Part shown: positions 47,824 through 62,077 of the stretch, piece after piece
Layout of the letters: every line of letters begins with the position of its first letter
How positions within the stretch are numbered: position 1 is the first letter of the stretch
Origin: Nitrospirota bacterium
Lineage (GTDB): Bacteria > Nitrospinota_A > UBA7883 > JACRGQ01
Assembly (NCBI GenBank): GCA_024275955.1
Contig: JAJRYD010000026.1
Coordinates: 1 to 64,000, forward strand
Direction of reading: 5' to 3'
DNA length: 64,000 nucleotides
Position numbers and translations under genes: made by a program
The notes under the pieces: generated by a model
Databases searched by the model: none
What the model saw: the letters and a program-made list of their open reading frames with translations, nothing else
Told to the model about the DNA's origin: nothing

Positions 47824-49809
47824 ATGAAGGTACTTTTCAGTTCTTGGAAGGGCAAGCTTGTCGATAACCGTGGCAAGCCGGAACCCGACTGGGAAGAATC
47901 TCCAAACATAAAACTGCCGGACACTTTTGGCGGTTCGCTTTCCGGCTTCATCGGCTGGGACGGCATTATCCTTTTAGACGAAAAGGCCGACGCGGTAGAG
48001 ATGACCGCCAACTACACAGCCTCGCTTCAGAGCAGTTCCTGCGGCAGATGCTTTCCATGCAGGGTCGGTACCAAGGTTGCCGAAGATATTATTAAGCGTA
48101 TTCTAAGCGGCAACGGCAAGAGTTCCGACCTAGAAGAGCTGTCAGACCTTTGCGATTCGATATCAAAAAACTCCAAGTGCGGCATAGGCCAGCTTGGGAC
48201 AGTAGCGATAACCGATTCTCTAAAGTATTTCAGGAGCGACTACGAAGATTACATAAGCGGAAAAAGAAAAGCCCCAAACCTTTCCTACCCGTACAAGATG
48301 ACAGCTCCCTGCATCTCTGCCTGTCCAACAGGTATGGATATACCGCAGTATATTGAATATATAAAAGATGCCGATTTCGCAGGCTCATTAGCGAATATAC
48401 GGGAGGCAAGCCCGATGGCCAACACGCTTGGGAGGGCATGCTTCCACCCTTGCGAAAACAGCTGTAGACGGGCAAATGTAGACGAGCCGATAGCTATCTG
48501 CAAGCTCAAAAGGTATGCGTGGGATTGGGAAGACCAGCACGCGGTGGAAAGCCCTAAAAACCTTAATATGCATACCAGAAAAGAGAAGATAGCGGTCGTA
48601 GGTGCCGGCCCGTCCGGCCTTTCCGCCGCTTACTATCTCGCTTTGCAAGGTTTTCATGTAACGGTCTATGAAAAACTTATGGGGCCTGGCGGTGCCGCAT
48701 GGACAGGTATCCCGCAGTACCGCATACCAAAAGAGATACTCCTCCGCGAAGCGGAGCAGGTAAAGGATGTCGGCGTAGATATAAAATACGGCGTAGAGTT
48801 TGGAAAAGACGAAACCTTTAAAAGCCTTAGAGATGCCGGATACGGAGCGTTCTATCTGGCTACCGGCGGCGACCTTTCCAAAAAGGCGCGCGTCGAAGGC
48901 GAGTTCGAAGGTTACGAAGGTTTTGTCGGCGGTATAGGCGTACTTAAAGATGTAGTGCTTAAAACAATGCCGAACCCTCCGATGAAAGGCAACGAACTGC
49001 CGAAGCCTAAAAGAATATTTGTGATAGGCGGTGGAAACACGGCGATGGACTGCGTGAGAACTTTCCGCCGTCTTGGTTGCGAAGATGTAAGTATCGTTTA
49101 CCGCAGAACGATGAAGGAACTGCCGGCCGACCCTCACGAGATACATGAAGCCGAGGAAGAAGGGGTTCTGTTTAAATTTCTTCTAGCTCCAACAAAAATA
49201 GTCGCAAAGAATAACAAGGTGGTAGGGCTTGAATGTCAGAAGATGGAGCTTGGCGAGCCGGACGAATCTGGACGAAGAAGGCCGCAGGCTGTCAAAGGCT
49301 CCGAGCATATACTCGATTGCGACCTTATCATCTCCGCGATAGGGCAGGATTGCGATATCAGATACCTCGCGGAAGAGCCGACTATAAAAAAGAGTGATTG
49401 GGATACCATAATTACGGATGAAGATACGATGCAGACCGAAGTGGCAGATATCTTCGCTGGCGGCGATGTACAGACAGGGCCGCTTACGCTGGTAACGGCG
49501 GTCGGGCAGGCTAGGCGGGCGGCGCAGTCTATAGGCCAATTTCTCCGTGGTGAAAAGGTAGAGATAACCGATGAACAAAAGGTTGAAAATATGATTGCCA
49601 AGCTTGGCGCTTACGATAAGAACGAAGTGGTGCCGGAAGCTGGCGGATGGGATAGAAAAGCGATGCCTATCTGCGGTATCGAGGAAAAAAACAACAGCTT
49701 TACGGAAGTCGAGCTTGGCTACAGCCAAGAAGACGCGATGGAAGAGGCCTCAAGGTGCATGCGTTGCTACATAGTAGGTATGGCCGCCGTAAACGGAGGC
49801 GGAAAATGA
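47824..49809 (+). CDS. Fusion of the NuoF iron-sulfur domain to a GltD-like FAD/NAD(P)H oxidoreductase
   Basis: The 661 residues join two known modules. At 60-140 sits the C-terminal NADH_4Fe-4S domain of NuoF: Cys73, Cys76 and Cys79 in SSSCGRCFPCRVGT plus Cys119 are the N3 cluster ligands. The FMN- and NADH-binding part of NuoF is missing. From about 160 to 640 it resembles the small subunit of glutamate synthase and NfnB-type proteins: Fer4_20-type cysteines (Cys163, 167, 206, 210, 214), the FAD motif VVGAGPSGLSAAYYL (258-272), and a second Rossmann motif GGGNTAMDC with SIVYRR (402-428), which by analogy favours NADPH. It begins the complex I operon, overlapping nuoG by ATGA. I infer electron input from NAD(P)H or a ferredoxin. 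The start is poorly supported by a ribosome-binding site. Confidence 0.88.
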   Translation: MKVLFSSWKGKLVDNRGKPEPDWEESPNIKLPDTFGGSLSGFIGWDGIILLDEKADAVEMTANYTASLQSSSCGRCFPCRVGTKVAEDIIKRILSGNGKSSDLEELSDLCDSISKNSKCGIGQLGTVAITDSLKYFRSDYEDYISGKRKAPNLSYPYKMTAPCISACPTGMDIPQYIEYIKDADFAGSLANIREASPMANTLGRACFHPCENSCRRANVDEPIAICKLKRYAWDWEDQHAVESPKNLNMHTRKEKIAVVGAGPSGLSAAYYLALQGFHVTVYEKLMGPGGAAWTGIPQYRIPKEILLREAEQVKDVGVDIKYGVEFGKDETFKSLRDAGYGAFYLATGGDLSKKARVEGEFEGYEGFVGGIGVLKDVVLKTMPNPPMKGNELPKPKRIFVIGGGNTAMDCVRTFRRLGCEDVSIVYRRTMKELPADPHEIHEAEEEGVLFKFLLAPTKIVAKNNKVVGLECQKMELGEPDESGRRRPQAVKGSEHILDCDLIISAIGQDCDIRYLAEEPTIKKSDWDTIITDEDTMQTEVADIFAGGDVQTGPLTLVTAVGQARRAAQSIGQFLRGEKVEITDEQKVENMIAKLGAYDKNEVVPEAGGWDRKAMPICGIEEKNNSFTEVELGYSQEDAMEEASRCMRCYIVGMAAVNGGGK

Positions 49810-52049
49810 GCGTCGATGCCAAAAAGAAAATGGTAACGCTTACCATCAACGACAAGCCGGTAGAGGTTCAAAAAGGAACCACCATACTTGAAGCGTCCAG
49901 AGCGAACGGGTTCGATATACCTACTCTTTGCTATCTTAAAAAACTAAAGCCTATAGGTTCCTGCCGTCTTTGCTCCGTCGAGCTGGAAGGAGTAGCCTCT
50001 CCCGTTATGTCGTGCGAAACACCGGCGGCACAAGGAATGAACGTAACTACCGATAGCGAATCTCTCAAAAAGTACCGGCAGGATATGATGAGAATGATTC
50101 TCGTTGAGCATCCAAGAGATTGCCCCGTTTGCGAACGGTCCGGCGAATGCTCTTTGCAGGATAGAACTTTCGAGCTTAATGTTCTCGGCCATAAATGGAC
50201 GACGCAAGGCCACACAAGAAAACCTATCGTCGATTGGGGATTGATAAAGTACGACCAGAACCTATGTATCATGTGCGAAAGATGTATAAAGGTCTGCCGT
50301 GAGGTTCAAGGGGTTGCCGCCTACAAAATCGACGGGACAGGCTACAAGTCGAAAATAAATACCGTAACAGGTGAAAAGCTCGATTGCGATTTTTGCGGAC
50401 AATGTATTTCCGTCTGTCCTGTAGGCGCTCTTTCGAGCGGTATCGGCTTTGCCGGACGCGCGTGGGAAATGAAAAGAACAGCTACTATCTGCCCGCATTG
50501 CGGTGTCGGCTGTACTCTCGACATCAATGTCAAAAAAGATAAAGTAATAAGAGTTACCTCTAACCATAAAGCAGGTATTAACGATGGCAACCTTTGCGCT
50601 AGAGGGCGGTTTGGGTATCAGTTTATCCAGAGCGACGAGAGAGTTACCGCGCCGCTTATAAAATCGGACGCAGGCATGGAAAACGCGAAATGGAACGACG
50701 CGCTAGAGGCAGTTGCCCAAAAGCTTAAAAGCTATAAAGACAAATTTGGCGGTAAAGCTTTTGTCGGCATAGGTTCCGAGCGTAGTACAAACGAAGACAA
50801 CTATGTTTTTCAGAAATTTTTCCGTGAAGTGCTTGGAAGCGGAAACCTCGATAATGTCGCTAATATGAATAACGGAGATATCTGCTCAAAAGCTTTCGAG
50901 ACTTTTGGCGATGTATCGCTTACAGCTTCCTACGAAAGTTTTGATTCTGCTGATCTTTTTGTGCTTATAGGCGCGGACGGAAGCGTGGAAAACCCTGTGG
51001 TAGGCAACCTTATAAGAAGGGCGACCATCAATCACGGCGCAGATACCGCCATAGCCTACTCAAGAAAAGCTGTTTTTTTGCCGGAGCCCAAAGTGGCGCT
51101 TACTTACGACTATAAAGATATGAACAGTTTTATGCTGAACCTTCTTGGCCGAACGATAGAAAACGGCGGCTATGACGTAGACTCTGCTTTTACCAAGTCG
51201 GTAGGAAAAGGCTCCGCCGATTTAGCGATAGACGAGCTTGTAGCGTTTACAAAAAAACGCGGCAACCCTATATATATAGTAGGGCAGGAAGCGCAAAAGC
51301 ATCCGCAGGCTAACGCCATCATAAGAAATATAGCGAACCTCGCTAAAATCTGCGGCGGAAAAGTGCTGATGCTCAAAGAATACTGCAACACGCAAGGGGT
51401 AAACGATATAGGCGTGTCGCCGAATGTTCTTCCCGGGCGCAAACCAGAATATAGGCCGGAGCTTATCTGCGGTTCATCGGTTATAGACCAGATGAAAAGT
51501 GGAACGGCTAAAGTGCTTATTGTTTTTGATGAAGATGTTTTGGGCAGGCTTTCTGGTTCTGAAAGTTTTAGAGATGCCTGCGGCAATGTCGAATATATAG
51601 TTGTGGTAGACCAGTTTAAAAGCGAGACTGCTAAGCTTGCCGATGTCTTTTTAGCGTCTAGTACGTCGGCCGAGAAAGACGGCACATTTACCGACATGGA
51701 GGGGCGTTGCCAAGCAGTTTTCCGCGCGGTTTCTCCTATCGGCAAACCTGCGTGGCAGATATTTACGGAACTTGCTTCCAAACTCGGCAAAGATTTCGGC
51801 TTCAAGTCGGTCGCCGACATACAGGCGGAGATAGCGAAAGATGTGCCGCTTTACTCCGGCATAGCTAGCGGCGACTTTCTTGTCGACTACGGCCCGCTTT
51901 TAAAAAGTTCTAGCGAGCTTAAACTTGTAGAGCCTGCAAAAGTTGAAGGGGAGCTTAATCCATCGTATGATCAGTCTCTCTTTAGCCTTGGCCTATACAC
52001 AGATTACTGCCCGGCTCTCAAACCGTATCAGGGGGGTAAAGCGCAGTGA
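49806..52049 (+). CDS. nuoG: Complex I subunit NuoG-like protein with four iron-sulfur sites and a molybdopterin-type fold
   Basis: The protein has 747 residues from ATG 49806, which overlaps the previous stop. Ligand sets: [2Fe-2S] at Cys42, 53, 56, 70; the His-Cys3 cluster at His102, Cys106, 109, 115; two [4Fe-4S] at Cys154/157/160/164 and Cys194/197/200/204; and an N7-type cluster at Cys229, 232, 236, 264 in CPHCGVGC and GNLCARG. The rest follows the FdhA/NuoG large-subunit fold. A formate dehydrogenase is less likely because no Sec/Cys active-site context is evident. It carries electrons towards NuoI and NuoB. Its place before nuoA is unusual. Confidence 0.9.
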   Translation: MSVDAKKKMVTLTINDKPVEVQKGTTILEASRANGFDIPTLCYLKKLKPIGSCRLCSVELEGVASPVMSCETPAAQGMNVTTDSESLKKYRQDMMRMILVEHPRDCPVCERSGECSLQDRTFELNVLGHKWTTQGHTRKPIVDWGLIKYDQNLCIMCERCIKVCREVQGVAAYKIDGTGYKSKINTVTGEKLDCDFCGQCISVCPVGALSSGIGFAGRAWEMKRTATICPHCGVGCTLDINVKKDKVIRVTSNHKAGINDGNLCARGRFGYQFIQSDERVTAPLIKSDAGMENAKWNDALEAVAQKLKSYKDKFGGKAFVGIGSERSTNEDNYVFQKFFREVLGSGNLDNVANMNNGDICSKAFETFGDVSLTASYESFDSADLFVLIGADGSVENPVVGNLIRRATINHGADTAIAYSRKAVFLPEPKVALTYDYKDMNSFMLNLLGRTIENGGYDVDSAFTKSVGKGSADLAIDELVAFTKKRGNPIYIVGQEAQKHPQANAIIRNIANLAKICGGKVLMLKEYCNTQGVNDIGVSPNVLPGRKPEYRPELICGSSVIDQMKSGTAKVLIVFDEDVLGRLSGSESFRDACGNVEYIVVVDQFKSETAKLADVFLASSTSAEKDGTFTDMEGRCQAVFRAVSPIGKPAWQIFTELASKLGKDFGFKSVADIQAEIAKDVPLYSGIASGDFLVDYGPLLKSSSELKLVEPAKVEGELNPSYDQSLFSLGLYTDYCPALKPYQGGKAQ

Positions 52050-52074: not shown

Positions 52075-52431
52075 ATGCTTAATCAGTATCTGCCGATTAT
52101 CGTTATGATAGTTGCCGCCGCCGGTACGGCAATAGGGATGATAGTTGCCACCACCCTTATCGGCCCTAAGAAAAGTTTTCCCGATAAGGACGAGCCGTTC
52201 GAGTGCGGTGTCTCTCCCGTGCACAACCCTAAGTCACGCTTCTCTATAAGTTTTTATGTTATCGCTATGCTTTTTATCATTTTCGACATCGAAGCGGTTT
52301 TTCTTTTTCCCTGGGCGGTTATCTTTCAAAAGCTCGGGATGTTCGGTTTTATAGAGATGCTTCTTTTTATTTTTGTTCTGGCGGTTGGGCTTGTATATGT
52401 TTGGCGGAAAGGAGCGCTTGAATGGGAGTAG
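52075..52431 (+). CDS. nuoA: Complex I subunit NuoA
   Basis: The 118 residues have three helices (about 5-28, 60-82, 88-108). The conserved loop segment FECGVSPVHNPKSRFSISFYVIAMLFIIFDIE and the following VFLFPWA are the NuoA signature. It lies at the membrane-arm junction. It begins 25 bases after nuoG, behind AGAAGGGGG, and overlaps nuoB by about 10 bases. Confidence 0.95.
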   Translation: MLNQYLPIIVMIVAAAGTAIGMIVATTLIGPKKSFPDKDEPFECGVSPVHNPKSRFSISFYVIAMLFIIFDIEAVFLFPWAVIFQKLGMFGFIEMLLFIFVLAVGLVYVWRKGALEWE

Positions 52432-52958
52432 AGAACGAAGAACAAGGTTTCGAGCATGTTCTTGGCGACAGCGTTATCCTTACTACTGTCGAACAGGTTG
52501 TCGGCTGGGGGAGAAAGTTTTCCTTCTTTCTCTATCCGTTTATTACCGCCTGTTGCGGTATGGAGTTTATGTCGGTAGCGGGGCCAAGATACGATATAGA
52601 CAGATTCGGGGCGGCGCTTCCGAGGTTTTCCCCAAGACAGGCAGACCTGCTTATAGTGGTAGGCACGATAAGCCACAAACAGTTGCCGATACTTAACAAA
52701 GTTTACAACCAGATGGCGGAGCCGAAGTGGGTGTTCGCCTACGGCGCCTGCGTTGTTTCCGGCGGCATGTACGACAACTATTCCACAGCGCAGGGGATAG
52801 ATACGATACTCCCTGTAGACGTATATGTTCCCGGCTGTCCGCCGAGACCGGAGATGGTCTTCGATGGATTGATGAAACTGCAGGATATCGTGCAGAACGA
52901 AAAGTTCAGCAAATGGCCCCGCGGCGCTGGCAAATACACCGCAGAGGAGCTTAAGTAA
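52422..52958 (+). CDS. nuoB: Complex I subunit NuoB
   Basis: The 178 residues hold the ligands of cluster N2, the final electron donor to quinone: adjacent cysteines in FITACCGMEFMSVAG, a third in GACVVSGGMYDNYS and a fourth in VPGCPPRPEMV. The RYDIDRFGAALPRFSPRQAD stretch is typical. It overlaps nuoA and is 7 bases from nuoC. The protein sits at the base of the peripheral arm. Confidence 0.96.
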   Translation: MGVENEEQGFEHVLGDSVILTTVEQVVGWGRKFSFFLYPFITACCGMEFMSVAGPRYDIDRFGAALPRFSPRQADLLIVVGTISHKQLPILNKVYNQMAEPKWVFAYGACVVSGGMYDNYSTAQGIDTILPVDVYVPGCPPRPEMVFDGLMKLQDIVQNEKFSKWPRGAGKYTAEELK

Positions 52959-52965
52959 AAAACGT

Positions 52966-53454
52966 ATGGGAAAGCTTATAGATATCGTTAAACAAAAGTT
53001 CGCGAGCGAATGTATCTCCTCGCACGAACAGCACGGCGATGAAACCGTTATAGTAAAAAAAGAGAAGATAAGAGAGATAATGGCTTGGCTTAAAAGTGAC
53101 GAATCTACCAAGTTCAATTTTCTTATCGATCTTACAGCTGTCGACTACAGCGAGTATGAAGGCAGAGGAGCGCCGCGTTTCGAAGTTGTCTACCATCTTT
53201 ATTCCCTTTCGCTCAACCACCGGCTAAGGGTGAAGGTTGGTGTCGATGAAAAAGATTGTATCGTCGATTCTCTCGTTCCTGTATGGATAGGGGCCGATTG
53301 GTACGAACGCGAAGTTTGGGATATGTATGGAATAAAATTTGATGGGCACCCAAATCTCAAGCGTCTTCTTTTGTACGAAGAGTTTGAGGGGCATCCATTG
53401 CGCAAAGATTATCCTATCAATAAACGACAACCGCTTATAGGGCCGGAGAACTGA
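52966..53454 (+). CDS. nuoC: Complex I subunit NuoC
   Basis: The 162 residues have the 30-kDa subunit signature EREVWDMYGIKFDGHPNLKR with LYEEFEGHPLRKDYP near the end. It is a separate gene, not a NuoCD fusion as in Escherichia coli. The end of the gene carries GCCGGAG, which can act as ribosome-binding site for the TTG start of the nuoD frame. Confidence 0.95.
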   Translation: MGKLIDIVKQKFASECISSHEQHGDETVIVKKEKIREIMAWLKSDESTKFNFLIDLTAVDYSEYEGRGAPRFEVVYHLYSLSLNHRLRVKVGVDEKDCIVDSLVPVWIGADWYEREVWDMYGIKFDGHPNLKRLLLYEEFEGHPLRKDYPINKRQPLIGPEN

Positions 53455-53501: not shown

Positions 53502-54662
53502 GTGTTCCTTAATATGGGGCCGTCCCACCCTGCCACGCATGGAACGGTCAGGTTTTTGCTTAGGCTTGAGGGTGAGCGCATTATCAATATGGAAACGGAG
53601 ATAGGCTATCTTCACCGCGCTTTTGAAAAGCATTGCGAAAACGGAAAATGGACTCAGGCGTTTCCGTACACAGACAGGCTTAACTACAACTCTGCGATGC
53701 AAAACAACGTAGCTTTTGCTTTAGGCGTTGAAAAACTTTTTGGTGTAGTAGATAAACTGCCGGAGCGTTGCCGGTACATAAGGGTAATCGTCTGCGAGCT
53801 GTCGAGGCTTTGCGATCATTACACCAACCTAGGCGCGGCGGCGCTGGAGCTTGGAGCGTTGACGGCTTTCCTTTATTTCGTCGAAGCAAGAGAGCTTACT
53901 TGGGACCTTATGGAATCAATCTGCGGAGCGAGGCTTACGTCTAACTATATCCGTATAGGCGGAGTAACCGCCGACCTGCCGGAAAACTTTAAAGAGCATG
54001 TTAAAGAGGTTTTTGACCGGAACCGCGAGTTTTACGACGATTTCGACAAACTCCTCACGCACAACAGAATTTTCCTAGATAGAATGAGAGAGGTAGGAAC
54101 TATTTCCGCCGAAGACGCTATAGCGTTTGGGTTTACCGGCCCATGCCTTAGGGCCGCTGGAGTGGAGTATGACGTAAGAAAGGCGAACCCGTACCTTGTG
54201 TATGACGAGCTTGATTTCGACGTGCCTGTAGGCTTCACTGGAGATAACTTCGATATTTATCTTATAAGAATGGAAGAGGTTAAGCAGTCGATTAGAATAA
54301 TAGAGCAGGCGCTTGAAAAAATACCGGAAGGGCCTGTTAATATCGACGACCCGAACATAAGACAACATTCAAAAGAAAGAATCCATGACGATATGGAATC
54401 TATGATATTTCATTTCAAAAACCAGATAGAGGGGATACAGGTTCCAAAAGGCGAGTCGTATTTCCCTACGGAAGGCTCTAACGGCGAGGTAGGTTTTTAT
54501 CTTGTAAGCGACGGCGGTGGCAAGCCGTACAAGTGCCGTGTCCGCCCTCCATGCATACCGCTTACGCAGGCTATGGGCTTTCGCGTTAAGGGGCTGTTTC
54601 TTGCCGACATAATACCTACGTTCGACATGATTAACCTTATAGGCGGAGAGTGCGACAGGTAA
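53502..54662 (+). CDS. nuoD: Complex I subunit NuoD
   Basis: The 386 residues from GTG 53502 carry the 49-kDa subunit signature LNMGPSHPATHGTVRF near the start, where His contacts the quinone, and later YLHRAFEKHCENGKWTQAFPYTDRLNY and GECDR at the end. It binds quinone with NuoB at cluster N2. The start shown follows an in-frame stop and has only a weak ribosome-binding sequence, so translation may use reinitiation or may be damaged. Its last codons overlap nuoH by TAATG. Confidence 0.93.
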   Translation: MFLNMGPSHPATHGTVRFLLRLEGERIINMETEIGYLHRAFEKHCENGKWTQAFPYTDRLNYNSAMQNNVAFALGVEKLFGVVDKLPERCRYIRVIVCELSRLCDHYTNLGAAALELGALTAFLYFVEARELTWDLMESICGARLTSNYIRIGGVTADLPENFKEHVKEVFDRNREFYDDFDKLLTHNRIFLDRMREVGTISAEDAIAFGFTGPCLRAAGVEYDVRKANPYLVYDELDFDVPVGFTGDNFDIYLIRMEEVKQSIRIIEQALEKIPEGPVNIDDPNIRQHSKERIHDDMESMIFHFKNQIEGIQVPKGESYFPTEGSNGEVGFYLVSDGGGKPYKCRVRPPCIPLTQAMGFRVKGLFLADIIPTFDMINLIGGECDR

Positions 54663-55771
54663 TGGACATAACACTCATCCCCGGGTATCAGTACATGCCC
54701 GAACTGGTAGAGATGATGCTCAAAATTGTCTTCATCTTTACCATGAATGTCGGTGTTTTTGCTCCGCTACTTGGATATGTCGAAAGAAAACAGTCTGCCC
54801 TTATGCAGGATAGGATAGGTGCAAACAGAGCGGCGATACTAGGGTTTACCATTTTTGGTTTGTGGCACACGATGACAGACGCAATAAAGCTGATAGCAAA
54901 AGAGGACTTCATACCAGAAGGCGCCGACAAGCCTTTGCATTTTTTAGCGCCTTTTGTAGCGGTAGTGCCGGCGCTTATAGCGTTTGCCGTAATACCGTTC
55001 GGCGGAACATACTACCTTTGGGGGCATGAGGCGCACCTTATTATTGCCGACCTTGACGTAGGAATACTCTTTATATTCGCTGTCGCCGGCATCGGCACTT
55101 ACGGCGCCGTTATAGCGGCGTGGGCTTCCAATAATAACTGGTCTTTGCTCGGCGGTGTTCGTACCGCCGCGCAGATGGTCTCTTACGAAGTAGCTATGGG
55201 CCTTACTATCGTCGGCGTTCTTATGGTTTACGAATCTCTAAAGCTTACGGAAATCGCTCTTATACAGGAAGATTTTTTCATGTGGGGTATATTCCTCCAG
55301 CCTGTCGGCTTCCTGCTTTTCCTCGCCTGCGCTTTGGCCGAGAACAAAAGAGTGCCGTTTGATATACCGGAAGCAGAGTCGGAGCTTATTGCCGGTTACT
55401 TTACCGAGTATTCCGGCTTGAAGTTTGCGATGTTCTGGATGGCGGAGTTTGTAGAGATTGTAACCATCTCGGCTATCCTTACCGTTCTCTTTTTCGGGGC
55501 GTGGCATATACCGTTCGTAACGCATGACGGCTTGCTTTCGCTTCTGACAAGTGTCGTAGGTGCCGATATCGGCAATCTTTTGCTGATGTTTATTCATCTT
55601 GCGGTTTTTTGGGGCAAGGTCTGCTTCCTTATAGTGTTCCTTATGCTTATCCGCTGGTCGCTTCCGCGCTTTAGGTACGACCAGATAATGAAACTCGGCT
55701 GGAAGATAATTCTTCCCCTGGCGCTAGTGAACATACTTGCAACAGGCGTAATACTTTTGGTGGTGAAATAA
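54662..55771 (+). CDS. nuoH: Complex I subunit NuoH
   Basis: The protein has 369 residues from ATG 54662, overlapping the nuoD stop. It has eight helices, with the quinone-channel segments DRIGANRAAILGFTIFGLWH and LAENKRVPFDIPEAESELIAGYFTEYSG, the latter the most conserved part of NuoH. It forms the junction between the arm with NuoB/D and the membrane pumps. The end TAATG couples to nuoI. Confidence 0.95.
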   Translation: MDITLIPGYQYMPELVEMMLKIVFIFTMNVGVFAPLLGYVERKQSALMQDRIGANRAAILGFTIFGLWHTMTDAIKLIAKEDFIPEGADKPLHFLAPFVAVVPALIAFAVIPFGGTYYLWGHEAHLIIADLDVGILFIFAVAGIGTYGAVIAAWASNNNWSLLGGVRTAAQMVSYEVAMGLTIVGVLMVYESLKLTEIALIQEDFFMWGIFLQPVGFLLFLACALAENKRVPFDIPEAESELIAGYFTEYSGLKFAMFWMAEFVEIVTISAILTVLFFGAWHIPFVTHDGLLSLLTSVVGADIGNLLLMFIHLAVFWGKVCFLIVFLMLIRWSLPRFRYDQIMKLGWKIILPLALVNILATGVILLVVK

Positions 55772-56346
55772 TGGCCGGCGGTTATTACAAAATTAAAAGA
55801 GGCGAGAGCTTGACCTTTTGGGAGAGGCTTTACCTGCCGGAAATTTTTAGAGGGTTATCGGTTACGACAAGGCATTTTATCCCGAACTGGATATCGACAA
55901 TAATAGCTTATATTACCCGTACCCCTGAAAAGCGAAAGATAATGACTATCTACTATCCTGAAGAGTTGCCGGAAATTCCCGATTCATACAGAGGCAAGCC
56001 GGTACTCGTGCGGGCCGGTAACGGCGCTACAAAGTGCGTCGCCTGCGGGCTTTGCGAAGTGGCATGTCCGCCAAAATGTATTTCGATAGTCGGCGGTAAC
56101 AGAAGTGACGGCACAAGATACCCGGAAACGTACACGCTTGACGGCAGTCGCTGTATTTTCTGCGGGCTTTGCGAGGAGGCTTGCCCCGTCGAAGCTATCG
56201 TAATGAGCCACAGGTATCAAGACCTATGCGAGCATGACCGAAGCAAAATGATTTACAGCAAAGAGGATCTGCTTGTTCCCGAAAAAGATTTACAATCGCG
56301 GCTCGATTTTATAAGAAGGAGGGCCTACGGTAAATGCAACTACTGA
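55771..56346 (+). CDS. nuoI: Complex I subunit NuoI
   Basis: The 191 residues have two ferredoxin-type motifs, CVACGLCEVACPPKCI and CIFCGLCEEACPVEAI, for the N6a and N6b clusters, which pass electrons from NuoG to NuoB. It is directly coupled to nuoH by TAATG and overlaps nuoJ by 13 bases. Confidence 0.96.
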   Translation: MAGGYYKIKRGESLTFWERLYLPEIFRGLSVTTRHFIPNWISTIIAYITRTPEKRKIMTIYYPEELPEIPDSYRGKPVLVRAGNGATKCVACGLCEVACPPKCISIVGGNRSDGTRYPETYTLDGSRCIFCGLCEEACPVEAIVMSHRYQDLCEHDRSKMIYSKEDLLVPEKDLQSRLDFIRRRAYGKCNY

Positions 56347-56831
56347 TGTTTTATCTGATAGGGTTCTTCGCCGTTCTTTCGGCTGTTTCGATGATAGTAG
56401 TAAGGAAGCCTCTTAACTCGGCGCTTTTCCTTATATTAAACATGATATGCCTTGCCGGTCTTTTTGCGCTTCTTAACGCGCATCTTATAGCCGTTTTGCA
56501 GATTATAGTTTACGCTGGCGCCATTATGGTGCTGGTTCTTTTTGTGATTATGGTTTTGAACCTGCGTGAAAAGGATGGAGATATAACTGTCCGAAAGGTT
56601 GCCGCGCAGTTTGTCGGCATTATCGTTGTTTCGGTGGTTATGGTGATGGTAGGAGCATCTGTAGATCCAAGCGCTATCTCTGCTTTGGGGTCTGCTTCGC
56701 CGGAGTTCGGCACTGTTGTCGGAGTTGGAAAAACTCTTTTTACAGATTACATACTGCCGTTCGAGATTGTCTCTGTGCTTTTGCTCGCGGCGATTATCGG
56801 GGCGGTTATTTTGAGTAAGTCGAAGGTGTAG
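56334..56831 (+). CDS. nuoJ: Complex I subunit NuoJ
   Basis: The 165 residues have five helices. [26 protein letters not shown] and [29 protein letters not shown], the latter with the helix-3 pi-bulge region, are the family marks. The start overlaps nuoI's end. An alternative start at ATG 56346 is less likely. Confidence 0.93.
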
Positions 56832-56833
56832 AG

Positions 56834-57142
56834 ATGGCAGAACTTACTTTAAACCATTACCTTATTTTAAGCGGAGTGCTTTTCTCCATCGGTGTCATAG
56901 GGGTGCTTACAAGGCGCAACGTAATAGTTGTCTATATGTGCATCGAGCTTATGTTCAACGCGGCGAACCTTATGATAATAGCTTTCTCAAACAGTCTTGG
57001 AGATATGACCGGCCATGTTTTTGTTTTCATGGTTATGGCGGTAGCGGCGGCGGAGGCGGCTGTCGGCTTGGCAATAATAATAGCTTTATATAGAAACAAA
57101 AAGACGGTTGACGTGGACGAAGTCAACCTTTTGAAAGGGTAG
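56834..57142 (+). CDS. nuoK: Complex I subunit NuoK
   Basis: The 102 residues have three helices. [18 protein letters not shown] and [31 protein letters not shown] are the NuoK signatures, including the two membrane glutamates important for proton transfer. It begins 3 bases after nuoJ. Confidence 0.96.
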
Positions 57143-57149
57143 AGGTTTA

Positions 57150-59081
57150 ATGGGCGATTTCTTGTGGGTTATCGTTTTACTGCCGCTTATAGGCGCTATC
57201 GCTACAGGCCTCTTCGGCCAGAAGATGAGCAAGGCTGGCGTCAACTTTTGGGCGCTTGGCTCTACAGGTCTCTCGTTCCTCCTTGCGGTAATAGCTTTTA
57301 TTGAGCTTGTTTTGCGTCCGGCCAGCGAGAGGGTTATAGTCAACACTGTTTACAGCTGGATAGCGGCTGGGGACTTAAACGTAAACGCAGGCTTTCTGCT
57401 CGACCCGCTTTCCGGCATATGGCTTTTAATAGTTACAGGTGTCGGGTTTCTCATACATATCTACTCGACAGGCTACATGAGCCACGACCATTCATACTGG
57501 CGGTTCTTTTGCTACCTTAACCTTTTTATGTTCTCAATGCTTATGCTCGTTATGGGCGACAACTACCTGCTTATGTTCATAGGGTGGGAAGGCGTGGGGC
57601 TTTGCTCGTATCTGCTTATAGGATACGACTATCACCGCGATGCCGCCGCGACTGCCGGCAAGAAGGCGTTCGTGATGAACAGAATCGGCGATTTTGGTTT
57701 TATGCTCGGTATGTTCCTTATCTTCGTAACTTTTGGGACGCTTGATTACCAGACAGTTTTTAATAACGCCCACGACAAGCTTGCCGTAGGCGGAGCGGTT
57801 GCCACCGCCATTACGCTTTTGCTTTTTGTAGGGGCTGTCGGCAAGTCGGCGCAGATTCCTCTCTACACTTGGCTACCAGACGCTATGGAAGGCCCAACGC
57901 CAGTGTCTGCGCTTATCCACGCGGCGACGATGGTAACGGCAGGCGTTTATATGGTTTGCCGTTCTTCGGTTCTTTTCGATATGGCTCCGACATCTATGGC
58001 GGTTGTCGCCGTGATAGGCGCCGCTACCGCTATCTTTGCCGCCACTATAGGTCTCTTTCAAAAAGATATTAAAAAGGTACTCGCCTATTCTACGGTATCT
58101 CAGCTTGGCTATATGTTTATGGCTTGCGGTGTCGGGGCTTATGTCGCCGCCGCGTTTCATGTAATGACGCATGCGTTTTTCAAAGCTTGCCTGTTCCTCG
58201 GTTCCGGCTCGGTTATACATGCTATGTCTGGCGAGCAGAACATGGAAAAGATGGGCGGCCTAAAGAAGCATATGCCAAAAACCTACTGGACATTTCTTAT
58301 CTCTACATTGGCGATAGCTGGCATATTTCCGTTTGCCGGTTTTTTTAGTAAAGATGAAATTCTTTACAAAACATACGCCTCCGGCAACATAGTGCTTTGG
58401 GGTATAGGCGCAGTTGCCGCCGGCATTACCGCTTTCTATATGTTTCGCGCCGTCTTTATGACATTTCACGGAACCAGCAGGGTAGAGCCGGAAGCTATGA
58501 AGCATCTGCACGAATCGCCAAATGTTATGACAACACCGTTGATAATTCTTGCCGGCCTTGCCGCCGTCGGCGGGTTCCTCGGCGTGCCTATTATCGAGGG
58601 TTGGAATATTCTTCACAACTTTTTAGGCCCGGTGTTTGAGCATGGCGGTACGGCTCACGGCCCGGCGGAGCATGGCGAACACCACCTTACGACGGAGCTT
58701 ATGCTTATGGGAGTGTCGATAGGCATAGCTGTTGTAGGTATAGCCAAAGCATACATTGCGTATATCAAACACCCAGAGATTACCGAAAAACTTTACAAGA
58801 TGTTCAAGCCTATACATACCGTCATATACAATAAATATTATGTAGACGAGCTTTACGATATCCTTATAGTAAAGCCGACTGTGGCGACAAGCAGATGGGT
58901 GCTTCACAAGCTTGTGGACGAGATAATAATAGATGGCATAGTGAACGGCGTTGGCGATTTCTTTGTGACGCTAAGCTCAATGGTAAAAAAGTTCCAGTCC
59001 GGCCTTTTGCGCGATTATGCTCTTACGATGATGCTTGGCGCGCTTCTCTTCGTTAGCTTCTATCTGTGGGGTGGTAAATGA
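57150..59081 (+). CDS. nuoL: Complex I antiporter-like subunit NuoL
   Basis: The 643 residues are of standard size, with 16 helices. VGLCSYLLIGYDYHRDAAATAG, KSAQIPLYTWLPDAMEGPTPVSALIHAATMV and the conserved Lys/His residues of the proton channel are visible. The long lateral helix at the end (about 540-600) includes EITEKLYKMFKPIHTVIYN and is followed by the final helix. A ribosome-binding sequence AGAGG precedes the ATG. It overlaps nuoM by ATGA. Confidence 0.96.
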   Translation: MGDFLWVIVLLPLIGAIATGLFGQKMSKAGVNFWALGSTGLSFLLAVIAFIELVLRPASERVIVNTVYSWIAAGDLNVNAGFLLDPLSGIWLLIVTGVGFLIHIYSTGYMSHDHSYWRFFCYLNLFMFSMLMLVMGDNYLLMFIGWEGVGLCSYLLIGYDYHRDAAATAGKKAFVMNRIGDFGFMLGMFLIFVTFGTLDYQTVFNNAHDKLAVGGAVATAITLLLFVGAVGKSAQIPLYTWLPDAMEGPTPVSALIHAATMVTAGVYMVCRSSVLFDMAPTSMAVVAVIGAATAIFAATIGLFQKDIKKVLAYSTVSQLGYMFMACGVGAYVAAAFHVMTHAFFKACLFLGSGSVIHAMSGEQNMEKMGGLKKHMPKTYWTFLISTLAIAGIFPFAGFFSKDEILYKTYASGNIVLWGIGAVAAGITAFYMFRAVFMTFHGTSRVEPEAMKHLHESPNVMTTPLIILAGLAAVGGFLGVPIIEGWNILHNFLGPVFEHGGTAHGPAEHGEHHLTTELMLMGVSIGIAVVGIAKAYIAYIKHPEITEKLYKMFKPIHTVIYNKYYVDELYDILIVKPTVATSRWVLHKLVDEIIIDGIVNGVGDFFVTLSSMVKKFQSGLLRDYALTMMLGALLFVSFYLWGGK

Positions 59082-60631
59082 GTATCCCCTGGCTTTCAAT
59101 AGTTACGTTTGTGCCTCTTGTAGGTGCGGCTGTCATCCTTATGGTCGACCGTGATAACAAAAGCCTTATAAACGGGATTACCTTCGCTACCGGAGTTATA
59201 GATTTCATTCTCTCCGTGCCTCTCTTTTTTATGTTTCGCGAAGGTACCGCAGATATGCAGTTTGTAGAGCGGTTCGACTGGGTTAAGAGCATCGGTATCG
59301 AGTACCATATGGGTATCGACGGTATCTCTCTTTTTATGGTTTTACTTACCACTTTTATCTGCATGATTTGCTATCTCTCCACATGGACGGCTATTACCGA
59401 GAACGTGAAAGAGTTTAATATCCTGATGCTTGTTTTGCAGACGGCGATGATAGGCGTTTTCTGCTCGCTCGATTTTATTCTCTTCTTTGTTTTCTGGGAA
59501 TTAATGCTTATCCCTATGTACATTCTTATAGGCGTATGGGGCGGAAAGCGGAAGATATACGCTACGGTAAAATTTTTCCTTTATACAATGGCCGGCTCGG
59601 TGCTTATGCTTCTTGCTATCATTGTGCTTTATATCGAAAACCACGCGCAAACAGGCATCTACACGTTCGATATACTTAAGTATCACGGCATGTCGCTTAC
59701 GCATGTTGCGCAGTTCTGGATGTTCCTTGCGTTCTTCGTGGCGTTTGCCATCAAGGTGCCGGTATGGCCGTTCCATACATGGCTACCGGACGCGCATGTG
59801 GAAGCGCCTACCGCAGGTTCTGTTATTCTGGCCGGAATCCTTCTAAAGATGGGAACATACGGTTTCCTTAGGTTTGCTATTCCTATATTTCCAGAGGCGG
59901 CGCAGTCTGCCGCATGGTGGATTTGCGGTATAGCGATAATAGGCATAATCTACGGCGCGTTGGTTGCTATGGTACAGGAAGATGTAAAAAAGCTTGTCGC
60001 CTACTCGTCTGTAAGCCATCTCGGTTTCGTCGTGCTTGGCACATTTGTGTTTACTCTTAGAGGCATAGAAGGCGCGATAATGCAGATGATAAATCACGGC
60101 ATCTCTACCGGCGCGCTTTTTCTTCTGGTCGGCATTCTTTACGAAAGAAGAGGCACAAGGGAAATATCGGAGTTCGGCGGGTTGACTAAGGTTATGCCGA
60201 GGTTCGCTGTCGTCTTTATGATAGTAACACTTTCATCTATAGCCTTGCCTATGACCAACGGGTTTGTCGGCGAATTTTTAATTCTGCTCGGCGTTTTCGA
60301 GGCTAACGTATGGTACGCGGTGCTTGCCTCCACAGGTATAATACTTGGGGCTGTTTATATGCTTTGGATGTTCCAGCGTGTGATGTTTGGCGAGATAACA
60401 AACGAGAAAAATAAAAACCTGCCAGACCTTACCAAACGGGAGATGACATATCTGGCACCGTTGGTTTTCTTTATCTTCCTTTTGGGCGTTTACCCGAACC
60501 CTGTGATAAAGAAAATGGAAGCATCGGTTGAACACCTGCTTATAAAAATCGACAAAAGCGGGCAGAACGCCTATGTGAGAGGCTCTAAGGTTGTGAACCC
60601 TGTTCCAGAGACAAAAGGCGGGGGAGACTAG
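59078..60631 (+). CDS. nuoM: Complex I antiporter-like subunit NuoM
   Basis: The 517 residues have 14 helices and the MrpD-type core. FVFWELMLIPMYILIGVWGG with the conserved Glu, then KVPVWPFHTWLPDAHVEAPTAGSVILAGILLKMGTYG and LVAYSSVSHLGFVVLG, show the proton pathway Lys and His. It is coupled to nuoL by ATGA and ends next to nuoN. Confidence 0.96.
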   Translation: MSIPWLSIVTFVPLVGAAVILMVDRDNKSLINGITFATGVIDFILSVPLFFMFREGTADMQFVERFDWVKSIGIEYHMGIDGISLFMVLLTTFICMICYLSTWTAITENVKEFNILMLVLQTAMIGVFCSLDFILFFVFWELMLIPMYILIGVWGGKRKIYATVKFFLYTMAGSVLMLLAIIVLYIENHAQTGIYTFDILKYHGMSLTHVAQFWMFLAFFVAFAIKVPVWPFHTWLPDAHVEAPTAGSVILAGILLKMGTYGFLRFAIPIFPEAAQSAAWWICGIAIIGIIYGALVAMVQEDVKKLVAYSSVSHLGFVVLGTFVFTLRGIEGAIMQMINHGISTGALFLLVGILYERRGTREISEFGGLTKVMPRFAVVFMIVTLSSIALPMTNGFVGEFLILLGVFEANVWYAVLASTGIILGAVYMLWMFQRVMFGEITNEKNKNLPDLTKREMTYLAPLVFFIFLLGVYPNPVIKKMEASVEHLLIKIDKSGQNAYVRGSKVVNPVPETKGGGD

Positions 60632-62077
60632 ATGGATATTGTTATACCGTCTATAAGTTTTTCGGCTATTATGCCGGAGCTGGTTCTCCTAGCTGTCGGC
60701 ATTCTTATACTTTTGCTTGATGTCTTTTCCGAGAAACATAGCGGGAAGCTGGCATACATAGCAGTTGGCGGTGTTGCTACCGCCCTTTTCTTTGCGATGA
60801 CACCGATAACCGACCCCTCCACCACCTTCGCGGGGCTTTACTCTGCGGACAGGTTTACGCAGTTCTTTAAGGTAATATTCCTTATAGGAACAGGCCTCAC
60901 ACTGCTTATCTCCGAAAAATATGCCAAAGAAAACAACATAAACCACGGTGAATATTATTCGCTGATACTTTTCGCCACTGTCGGCATGATGTTTATGGCG
61001 GGAGGGGCCGACCTCATTACCATCTTTATGGGTGTCGAGCTGATGTCTATCTGCCTTTACATATTGGCAGGCTACACCCGCGCAAGAATGGCATCGAACG
61101 AAGCTTCGATGAAATATTTTCTGCTTGGAGCGTTTGCCAGCGGTTTTCTCCTTTACGGCATGGGGCTTATATACGGTATCACGGGGCAGACTAAGCTGGT
61201 TAAGATAGCCGGAGCGATTTCCGCTAACTCGGATAACATGATGGTACTGGTGATAGGAGCAGGCTTGATGATAGTCGGTTTTGCTTTTAAGCTTGCGGCG
61301 GTTCCGTTTCACCAGTGGACACCAGACGTATATCAGGGCGCGCCGATTCCTGTTACCGCGTTTATGTCTTCCGGCCCTAAAGCGGCGGCACTCGCGGCTA
61401 TTCTCAGGGTGCTTGTCGAGGCTATGAACTTCATACAGGTCGATTGGATAATGTGGGTTTCGGTGCTGGCGATAATGACGATGACCGTTGGCAATATAGC
61501 GGCGCTTGTCCAGTCCGACATTAAGAGGATGCTCGCGTTTTCTTCCATATCGCATGCCGGTTACGCGCTTGTAGGCGTTTCCGCGGCAACTTCTGACGGA
61601 GTTTCCGCCGTCATGTTCTATATGCTTGTTTACACATTTATGAATATAGCGGCATTCGGCATTCTCGCGCTGGTCGCAAAGGCAAACGAACAAAATACAA
61701 GCATAGATGCCTTTAAAGGGCTGTTTAGAACCAATCCGGTATTAGCCGCCGTGATGACTATTATGCTTTTCTCACTCGCCGGAATACCGCCGATGGGTGG
61801 CTTTATGGCAAAGTTCTATATTTTCATGTCGGCAGTTAATGCTGGGCATTTGGGGCTTGTTCTCGTAGCGGTTATCAACTCCGCTATAGGCGCCTATTAC
61901 TACATCAAGGTTATAGTCGCTATTTACTTTCAAGAAAACCCTGAAAAGCCGGAGCCGGTAAAAGCGGGGCCATCGCTTGTTTTCGCGTTGCTTGTTTCGG
62001 TGATAGCGGTTTTCGTTTTGGGGCTTATGCCGGACTGCTACCTAACGATTGCCGGCAAAGCGTTACTGCCGTTCTAG
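60632..62077 (+). CDS. nuoN: Complex I antiporter-like subunit NuoN
   Basis: The 481 residues have 14 helices. GVELMSICLYILAGYTRARMASNEASMKYFLLGAFASG and FKLAAVPFHQWTPDVYQGAPIPVTAFMS are the family signatures. It ends the operon: 58 bases later comes a tRNA-Leu remnant. No terminator hairpin is obvious after the stop. Confidence 0.96.
   Translation: MDIVIPSISFSAIMPELVLLAVGILILLLDVFSEKHSGKLAYIAVGGVATALFFAMTPITDPSTTFAGLYSADRFTQFFKVIFLIGTGLTLLISEKYAKENNINHGEYYSLILFATVGMMFMAGGADLITIFMGVELMSICLYILAGYTRARMASNEASMKYFLLGAFASGFLLYGMGLIYGITGQTKLVKIAGAISANSDNMMVLVIGAGLMIVGFAFKLAAVPFHQWTPDVYQGAPIPVTAFMSSGPKAAALAAILRVLVEAMNFIQVDWIMWVSVLAIMTMTVGNIAALVQSDIKRMLAFSSISHAGYALVGVSAATSDGVSAVMFYMLVYTFMNIAAFGILALVAKANEQNTSIDAFKGLFRTNPVLAAVMTIMLFSLAGIPPMGGFMAKFYIFMSAVNAGHLGLVLVAVINSAIGAYYYIKVIVAIYFQENPEKPEPVKAGPSLVFALLVSVIAVFVLGLMPDCYLTIAGKALLPF

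Follow-up and report, generated by a model that had tools for sequence, protein, structure and literature searches.

The nuo operon and its first gene

Within the window, by which we mean the whole 64,000-nucleotide stretch of Nitrospinota DNA that was analyzed, we identified an operon on one strand with the gene order fusion-G-A-B-C-D-H-I-J-K-L-M-N (Table 1). This one operon holds the seven membrane subunits of complex I (A, H, J, K, L, M, and N) and NuoB, C, D, and I, together with ligands for clusters N1b, N5, N4, N6a/b, and N2. A sequence-only reading of the same DNA had listed these genes along with a NuoG carrying an N7 site, all of which our searches confirmed; it had also described the first gene as encoding a 661-residue fusion of the N3 domain of NuoF (Cys73/76/79/119) to a GltD-like FAD unit with a YRR motif, and here Pfam and alignment both agreed. 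The stop codon of the fusion gene overlaps the nuoG start by ATGA (49806), and due to this overlap we prefer 49806 to the start of the longest nuoG frame (49755), which is not the likely one. The ligands of N1b, N5, the N4-type cluster, and N7 in NuoG are invariant in 12 homologs, and likewise invariant is an additional complete CxxCxxCxxxC motif, that of the second [4Fe-4S] of the ferredoxin-like domain, which the sequence-only reading had left unmentioned.

Pfam searches of the 661-residue fusion found no Complex1_51K, SLBB, or 2Fe-2S_thioredx domain, i.e., no FMN/NADH, SLBB, or NuoE-like part. The proteins nearest to its N3 domain were of the HydB/BfuB type, and its Fer4_20 domain lacks the N-terminal (first) CxxC of GltD. 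Seven cysteines (Cys163, 167, 206, 210, 214, 645, and 648) are invariant in all 50 aligned sequences, and we propose Cys645 and Cys648 as putative ligands of the distal [4Fe-4S] cluster. Cys226 occurs in all 17 complex-I-linked copies, with Lys or Arg instead in most other short fusions. The N-terminal MKxLFSSW..xVDNRG motif is found in most short fusions and is absent or degenerate in two; the part compared in the long FMN-bearing fusions described below does not include this region. An AlphaFold2 model built from the 50-row alignment had a pLDDT of 92.3 and a pTM of 0.90, superseding a model from 15 close relatives only that was too weak (pLDDT 73). The best annotation-model matches of the fusion gene carry glutamate-synthase-type names, so metabolic reconstructions could miss it.

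Table 1. Coordinates of the fusion gene, its domains and motifs, and the nuo genes in the window.
Feature	Position	Strand	Evidence
N3-GltD fusion, putative electron-input subunit replacing NuoE/NuoF, 661 aa	47824..49809	+	Pfam, alignment, AlphaFold2 model
N-terminal motif MKxLFSSW..xVDNRG	47824..47874	+	alignment of fusions
N3 [4Fe-4S] domain of NuoF, residues 60-142, Cys73/76/79/119	48001..48249	+	NADH_4Fe-4S PF10589, 1e-22
Fer4_20 domain, Pfam residues 160-239, Cys163/167/206/210/214 and Lys229	48301..48540	+	Pfam, alignment
FAD and NAD(P)H Rossmann domains, Pyr_redox_2, residues 255-563, Arg300, YRR 426-428	48586..49512	+	Pfam, alignment
C-terminal Cys645-x2-Cys648	49756..49767	+	invariant in 50 relatives
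nuoG, ligands N1b, N5, N4-type, extra [4Fe-4S], N7	49806..52049	+	Pfam, alignment
nuoA	52075..52431	+	window genes; homologs in same order
nuoB, N2 cysteines 44, 45, 110, 139	52422..52958	+	domain search, motif reading
nuoC	52966..53454	+	domain search
nuoD	53502..54662	+	domain search, annotation models
nuoH	54650..55771	+	window genes; homologous loci
nuoI, N6a/N6b motifs	55771..56346	+	domain search, motif reading
nuoJ	56334..56831	+	window genes; homologous loci
nuoK	56834..57142	+	window genes; homologous loci
nuoL	57150..59081	+	window genes; homologous loci
nuoM	59078..60631	+	window genes; homologous loci
nuoN	60632..62077	+	window genes

Other redox genes of the genome

The genome from which the window derives is 98.4% complete. 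A search for NuoE (PF01257) gave no match in it and was positive in seven control genomes, and searches of the same genome gave no match to Nqr, Rnf, or PntB. Its sole FMN-domain match was a 438-residue protein adjoining another gene; from our reading of the sequences the protein appears PduS/RnfC-like and its neighbor appears to be an aldehyde dehydrogenase. These two genes lie together with a BMC-shell-like gene (L001:7-3350), which suggests that this Nitrospinota genome encodes a bacterial microcompartment. The NuoE and the NuoF with an FMN/NADH site that characterize the canonical NADH-type complex I were thus not found here, in accord with the earlier statement that both NuoE and the NuoF FMN/NADH domain are missing from the operon; a nuoEF pair at another site of the genome had been named beforehand as the finding that would count against the proposal, and our search turned up none.

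The citrate-binding domain of ATP-citrate lyase was present in 24/24 Nitrospinota genomes, including that of the window, and RuBisCO was found in none of the 24, a combination that agrees with a reductive TCA cycle in need of reductant. For DsrA, 18 of the 24 genomes scored above the cut-off, and the window's genome had no full-scoring match.

Type of flavin module

The closest solved relatives of the flavin module were the GltD parts of NfnABC and StnABC, with NfnAB, glutamate synthase, and dihydropyrimidine dehydrogenase ranking behind them. By alignment, Lys229 and Arg300 of the fusion correspond to Lys170 and Arg239 of StnC (StnC numbering), and both are conserved in every complex-I-linked copy. 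Lys170 of StnC coordinates the FAD-adjacent cluster, and Arg239 is needed for activity; the StnC flavin is not bifurcating, and electrons pass linearly from NADPH and FAD via two [4Fe-4S] clusters to NuoG-like clusters and then to cluster B1 of StnB, the counterpart of N3 (PMC10482914). As the fusion has the Lys ligand, the equivalent of Arg239, the reduced N-terminal Cys set, and the C-terminal CxxC of the Stn and NfnABC modules, we assign its GltD module, on these residues, to the StnC/NfnABC type. The partners of the module in the Stn/NfnABC complex are missing: we found neither StnA (NuoE-like) nor StnB (NuoF-like with FMN). Of the parts that define the bifurcating Bfu family (PMC9304861), there is no BfuC and no BfuB with an FMN domain and extra clusters. 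At the proximal cluster the fusion has Lys229, not the Glu that serves as ligand in NfnB, the GltD-like protein that bifurcates in NfnAB (PMC10482914).

The YRR motif of the nucleotide site is common to the fusion, StnC, NfnA, and the Nfn large subunits and occurs in all 17 complex-I-linked copies; some relatives have CLE instead, among them the long fusions of L088 and L128. As YRR is shared with NADPH enzymes, a preference of the fusion for NADPH is plausible, although GltD-like modules can also serve NADH, as do those of glutamate synthases from eukaryotes and some cyanobacteria (PMC8097209).

Distribution and phylogeny of the fusion

We identified the fusion in 17/24 Nitrospinota genomes, with 63–74% identity in the 16 besides the window's own. 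It stands immediately before nuoG in 15/15 loci that were readable, and nuoA-B-C follow in the 13 with enough flank; given this identity and the fixed operon position the fusion is not a chance arrangement. The claim that the FMN-based module has been replaced by N3 plus a GltD-like FAD unit is supported by the domains, by the lack of NuoE and NuoF, and by the conserved operon position. Strong NuoE matches were not found in several further fusion carriers (G008, G010, G011, G013, G016, and G021), and were present in five of the seven Nitrospinota genomes without the fusion. The three of these five that were examined each have a long NuoF-like gene followed by NuoG, the arrangement of NUO-2 in Nitrospina gracilis (PMC3578206). 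Several relatives of the window's genome have a separate NuoE-NuoF-like gene, which is absent from the window's genome. Apparently solitary fused NuoE-NuoF genes (~620–670 residues) occur in several Nitrospinota (L024, L026, L027, L029, and L030), with no nuo genes in the short flanks covered. A complex-I-linked fusion in one MAG (L060:1707-3659, + strand) has Gly for the third N3 cysteine (SCGKCYSGR), which is either a real change or a MAG error. In some carriers of the N3-GltD module (L061:19398-21999 and L112:1-3102) the antiporter genes after nuoK are only ~26–30% identical to the window's NuoL/M/N, and thus the distal part of the membrane arm seems to vary from one carrier to another.

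Outside the Nitrospinota, the N3-GltD junction was found in 65/192 genomes of the class to which Desulfonema magnum (Desulfobacterota) belongs, so we rejected a restriction of the fusion to the window's lineage. The sequence-only reading had considered a physical N3 fusion unfamiliar; the fusion as such is evidently widespread in this class, where most carriers have the junction away from complex I and some have a full FMN domain in front of it. Among the Desulfobacterota loci fetched, L110 and L111 repeat the order fusion-G-A-B-C-D-H-I-J-K (~51% identity), and in L112:7949-10397 (− strand) the fusion lies directly before nuoA with no nuoG between.

Other N3-GltD genes have different neighbors. 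In L127:6154-9988 (− strand) a short fusion directly precedes an [FeFe]-hydrogenase with a NuoG-type N-terminus, possibly forming a two-subunit NADPH-dependent hydrogenase. L121 has the fusion near a split NuoG-like gene, and adjoining both is a single gene (L121:5222-7261, − strand) that combines an RnfB-like Fe-S N-terminus with a GltD-like module. In L118:2834-10416 (+ strand) the fusion lies downstream of HdrA/FlpD-like and Hdr-type Fe-S genes. The module is thus a wider plug-in found beside [FeFe]-hydrogenase, Hdr-like, and NuoG-like genes and is not unique to complex I; its places beside the L127 hydrogenase and the split L121 gene fit a plug for NuoG-type partners. The first match outside the Nitrospinota, from a Myxococcota (L062), seemed to be the same but proved to be a 1017-residue FMN-bearing HydB-GltD protein by an [FeFe]-hydrogenase-like HydA. 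It and a second such protein (L062:2756-5809 and L129:8076-11198; ~1020–1040 residues) combine an FMN domain, N3, and a GltD-like module in a single polypeptide, and a HydA/NuoG-type gene comes next.

In a maximum-likelihood tree of 50 sequences, a limited sample, all short fusions grouped together in a single clade (100/99), apart from the long FMN-bearing NuoF-N3-GltD proteins. The complex-I-linked fusions formed a subclade (100/100) of 19 rows, 17 of them linked and two (L113 and L114) unlinked. Read from this limited sample, a single origin of the short fusion is probable, as is a single recruitment to complex I, after which some copies lost the linkage.

Proposed mechanism and alternatives

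We consider it likely, from the sequences compared here, that the product of the operon is a complex I that pumps protons and is linked to quinone, and that its N-module consists of NuoG and the N3-GltD fusion, with a linear NADPH-type FAD route and no bifurcation. These two proteins would stand in for NuoE, NuoF, and NuoG, the helical N3 domain docking to NuoG as that of NuoF does and bringing the GltD-like unit along. NAD(P)H, most likely NADPH and less likely NADH, would exchange hydride with the FAD, and single electrons would pass between FAD, the proximal [4Fe-4S] (Cys and Lys229 ligands), the distal [4Fe-4S] (including the C-terminal CxxC), and N3, and from N3 to N1b in NuoG and along the usual chain to N2 and quinone, with protons pumped by the membrane arm. 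With no NuoE, FMN, PntB, Nqr, or Rnf present, the complex could directly couple NADPH with the quinone pool and with the proton gradient, in both directions. In reverse it would carry electrons from quinol to NADP+ and make NADPH, and such reverse flow is attractive in a genome with ATP-citrate lyase, as a reductive TCA cycle would need reductant. Against this scheme stand the incomplete N3 site of L060, the L112 operon without nuoG between fusion and nuoA, and the separate NuoE-NuoF-like gene of several relatives. Electrons may also pass from the GltD clusters directly to NuoG, as within StnC, with N3 off the path as an anchor.

The same architecture might have NADH as its physiological partner and act as an FAD-based NADH:quinone oxidoreductase. 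The NADH-using glutamate synthase modules set a precedent for this (PMC8097209), and the window's genome has no other NADH dehydrogenase of the NuoE/F, Nqr, or Rnf type; nevertheless we think NADH unlikely, as YRR is kept in all 17 linked copies and is shared with the NADPH-using StnC, NfnA, and Nfn large subunits. A different role for the fusion follows if ferredoxin or another one-electron donor feeds NuoG, leaving the fusion as an NADP+-reducing exit (an FNR-like branch) or a structural cap. Complexes I of 11 subunits function without NuoEFG (PMC11238625), NUO-2 of Nitrospina was proposed to be ferredoxin-linked (PMC3578206), and the extra NuoG cluster fits such a donor. The FAD, nucleotide, and cluster residues are, however, strictly conserved, which argues for an active nucleotide site, and the main route is favored by the translational overlap with nuoG and by the joining to N3; we regard this alternative as improbable.

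The suggestion that the complex is perhaps bifurcating fared worse. In a bifurcating or confurcating complex the FAD would split electrons between quinone and ferredoxin as a third partner, and this could be envisaged because NfnB bifurcates in NfnAB (PMC10482914), because NuoG has the extra [4Fe-4S] seen in HydA/Bfu-type proteins, and because confurcation was proposed for Nuo-Bfu complexes (PMC9304861). The fusion instead resembles StnC, which lost bifurcation (PMC10482914), in its Lys in place of the NfnB Glu ligand and in its C-terminal CxxC, and the system has no second flavin, NuoE/BfuC, FMN, or BfuB C-terminal ferredoxin domain. From the Stn-type ligands and the single flavin we infer a non-bifurcating route, and regard the alternative as very unlikely. 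Largely refuted, and hardly credible, is an ordinary NADH complex I with nuoE and nuoF elsewhere and an unrelated glutamate-synthase-like gene upstream by accident. Some relatives do retain the separate NuoE-NuoF-like gene, and the 98.4% complete genome could hide a small gap, but the window's genome has no NuoE, the six fusion carriers named above have no strong match, the operon position is fixed across the phylum and in Desulfobacterota, and the N3 domain has been retained.

Returning to the NADPH-linked complex, we see about an even chance of a broader picture in which it is a reversible NADPH:quinone complex I, FAD and two [4Fe-4S] clusters replacing FMN and NuoE, and in which N3-GltD serves to connect NADPH with NuoG-type partners in general (complex I, [FeFe]-hydrogenase, and perhaps others). 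Complex I is usually taught with a single NADH-FMN entrance, and ferredoxin, F420, or truncated versions are treated as exceptions. If our proposal is true, the N-module can be exchanged at one defined joint (N3), here in a conserved phylum-wide version, and the direct coupling of NADPH to the proton gradient would account for Nitrospinota life without Pnt, Rnf, and Nqr, the gradient driving NADP+ reduction directly from quinol with no transhydrogenase. The uncultured Nitrospinota and some sulfate-reducer relatives would then have a complex I re-plumbed for another fuel, probably NADPH.

Comparison with known systems

We rate the system as a new pairing of two known parts, the GltD-like module and the pump; our literature searches, with most subscription papers outside their scope, found no published description of an N3-GltD complex I. 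It has NuoG, B, C, D, and I, the full membrane arm, and the N3 domain in common with the canonical complex I (NuoA-N), but lacks NuoE, retains none of the FMN, NADH, and SLBB parts of NuoF, and has an FAD module instead. NuoE and NuoF are also missing from the 11-subunit and Fpo/NDH-1-type complexes I, which are in addition without NuoG and N3 and receive their electrons from ferredoxin or F420H2.

Nuo-Bfu and NUO-2 of Nitrospina gracilis, the latter from the same phylum, likewise combine a modified N-module with a NuoG that has an additional [4Fe-4S] (PMC9304861, PMC3578206), but NuoE is retained in both, together with a long NuoF-like subunit that includes a ferredoxin domain, and neither has an N3-fused GltD module. 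SfrAB of Geobacter, an NADPH:Fe(III) oxidoreductase, pairs a GltD-like NADPH subunit with a NuoG-like subunit as here, whereas an N3 domain and a complex I partner are not described there (PMC7483475). The long NuoF-N3-GltD fusions (L062 and L129, and the related L088 and L128) share the N3-GltD junction; those near HydA differ in keeping the FMN domain (tested for L062 and L129), in having no link to complex I, and in their separate tree branch. StnABC of Sporomusa ovata and NfnABC (PDB 8oh5, 9bov, and 9n5u) have the same GltD-like NADPH/FAD module (32–38% identity in fold alignments), and like the fusion they have the Lys-type proximal cluster, the Arg239 equivalent, the C-terminal CxxC, and coupling, predicted for the fusion, to NuoG-like clusters and N3 (B1). 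In those enzymes, however, the GltD part lies within the NuoG-like chain and the route ends at the FMN bifurcation site of StnB, whereas in the window's system GltD is joined to N3 with no FMN site left, and its partner would be a quinone-linked proton pump.
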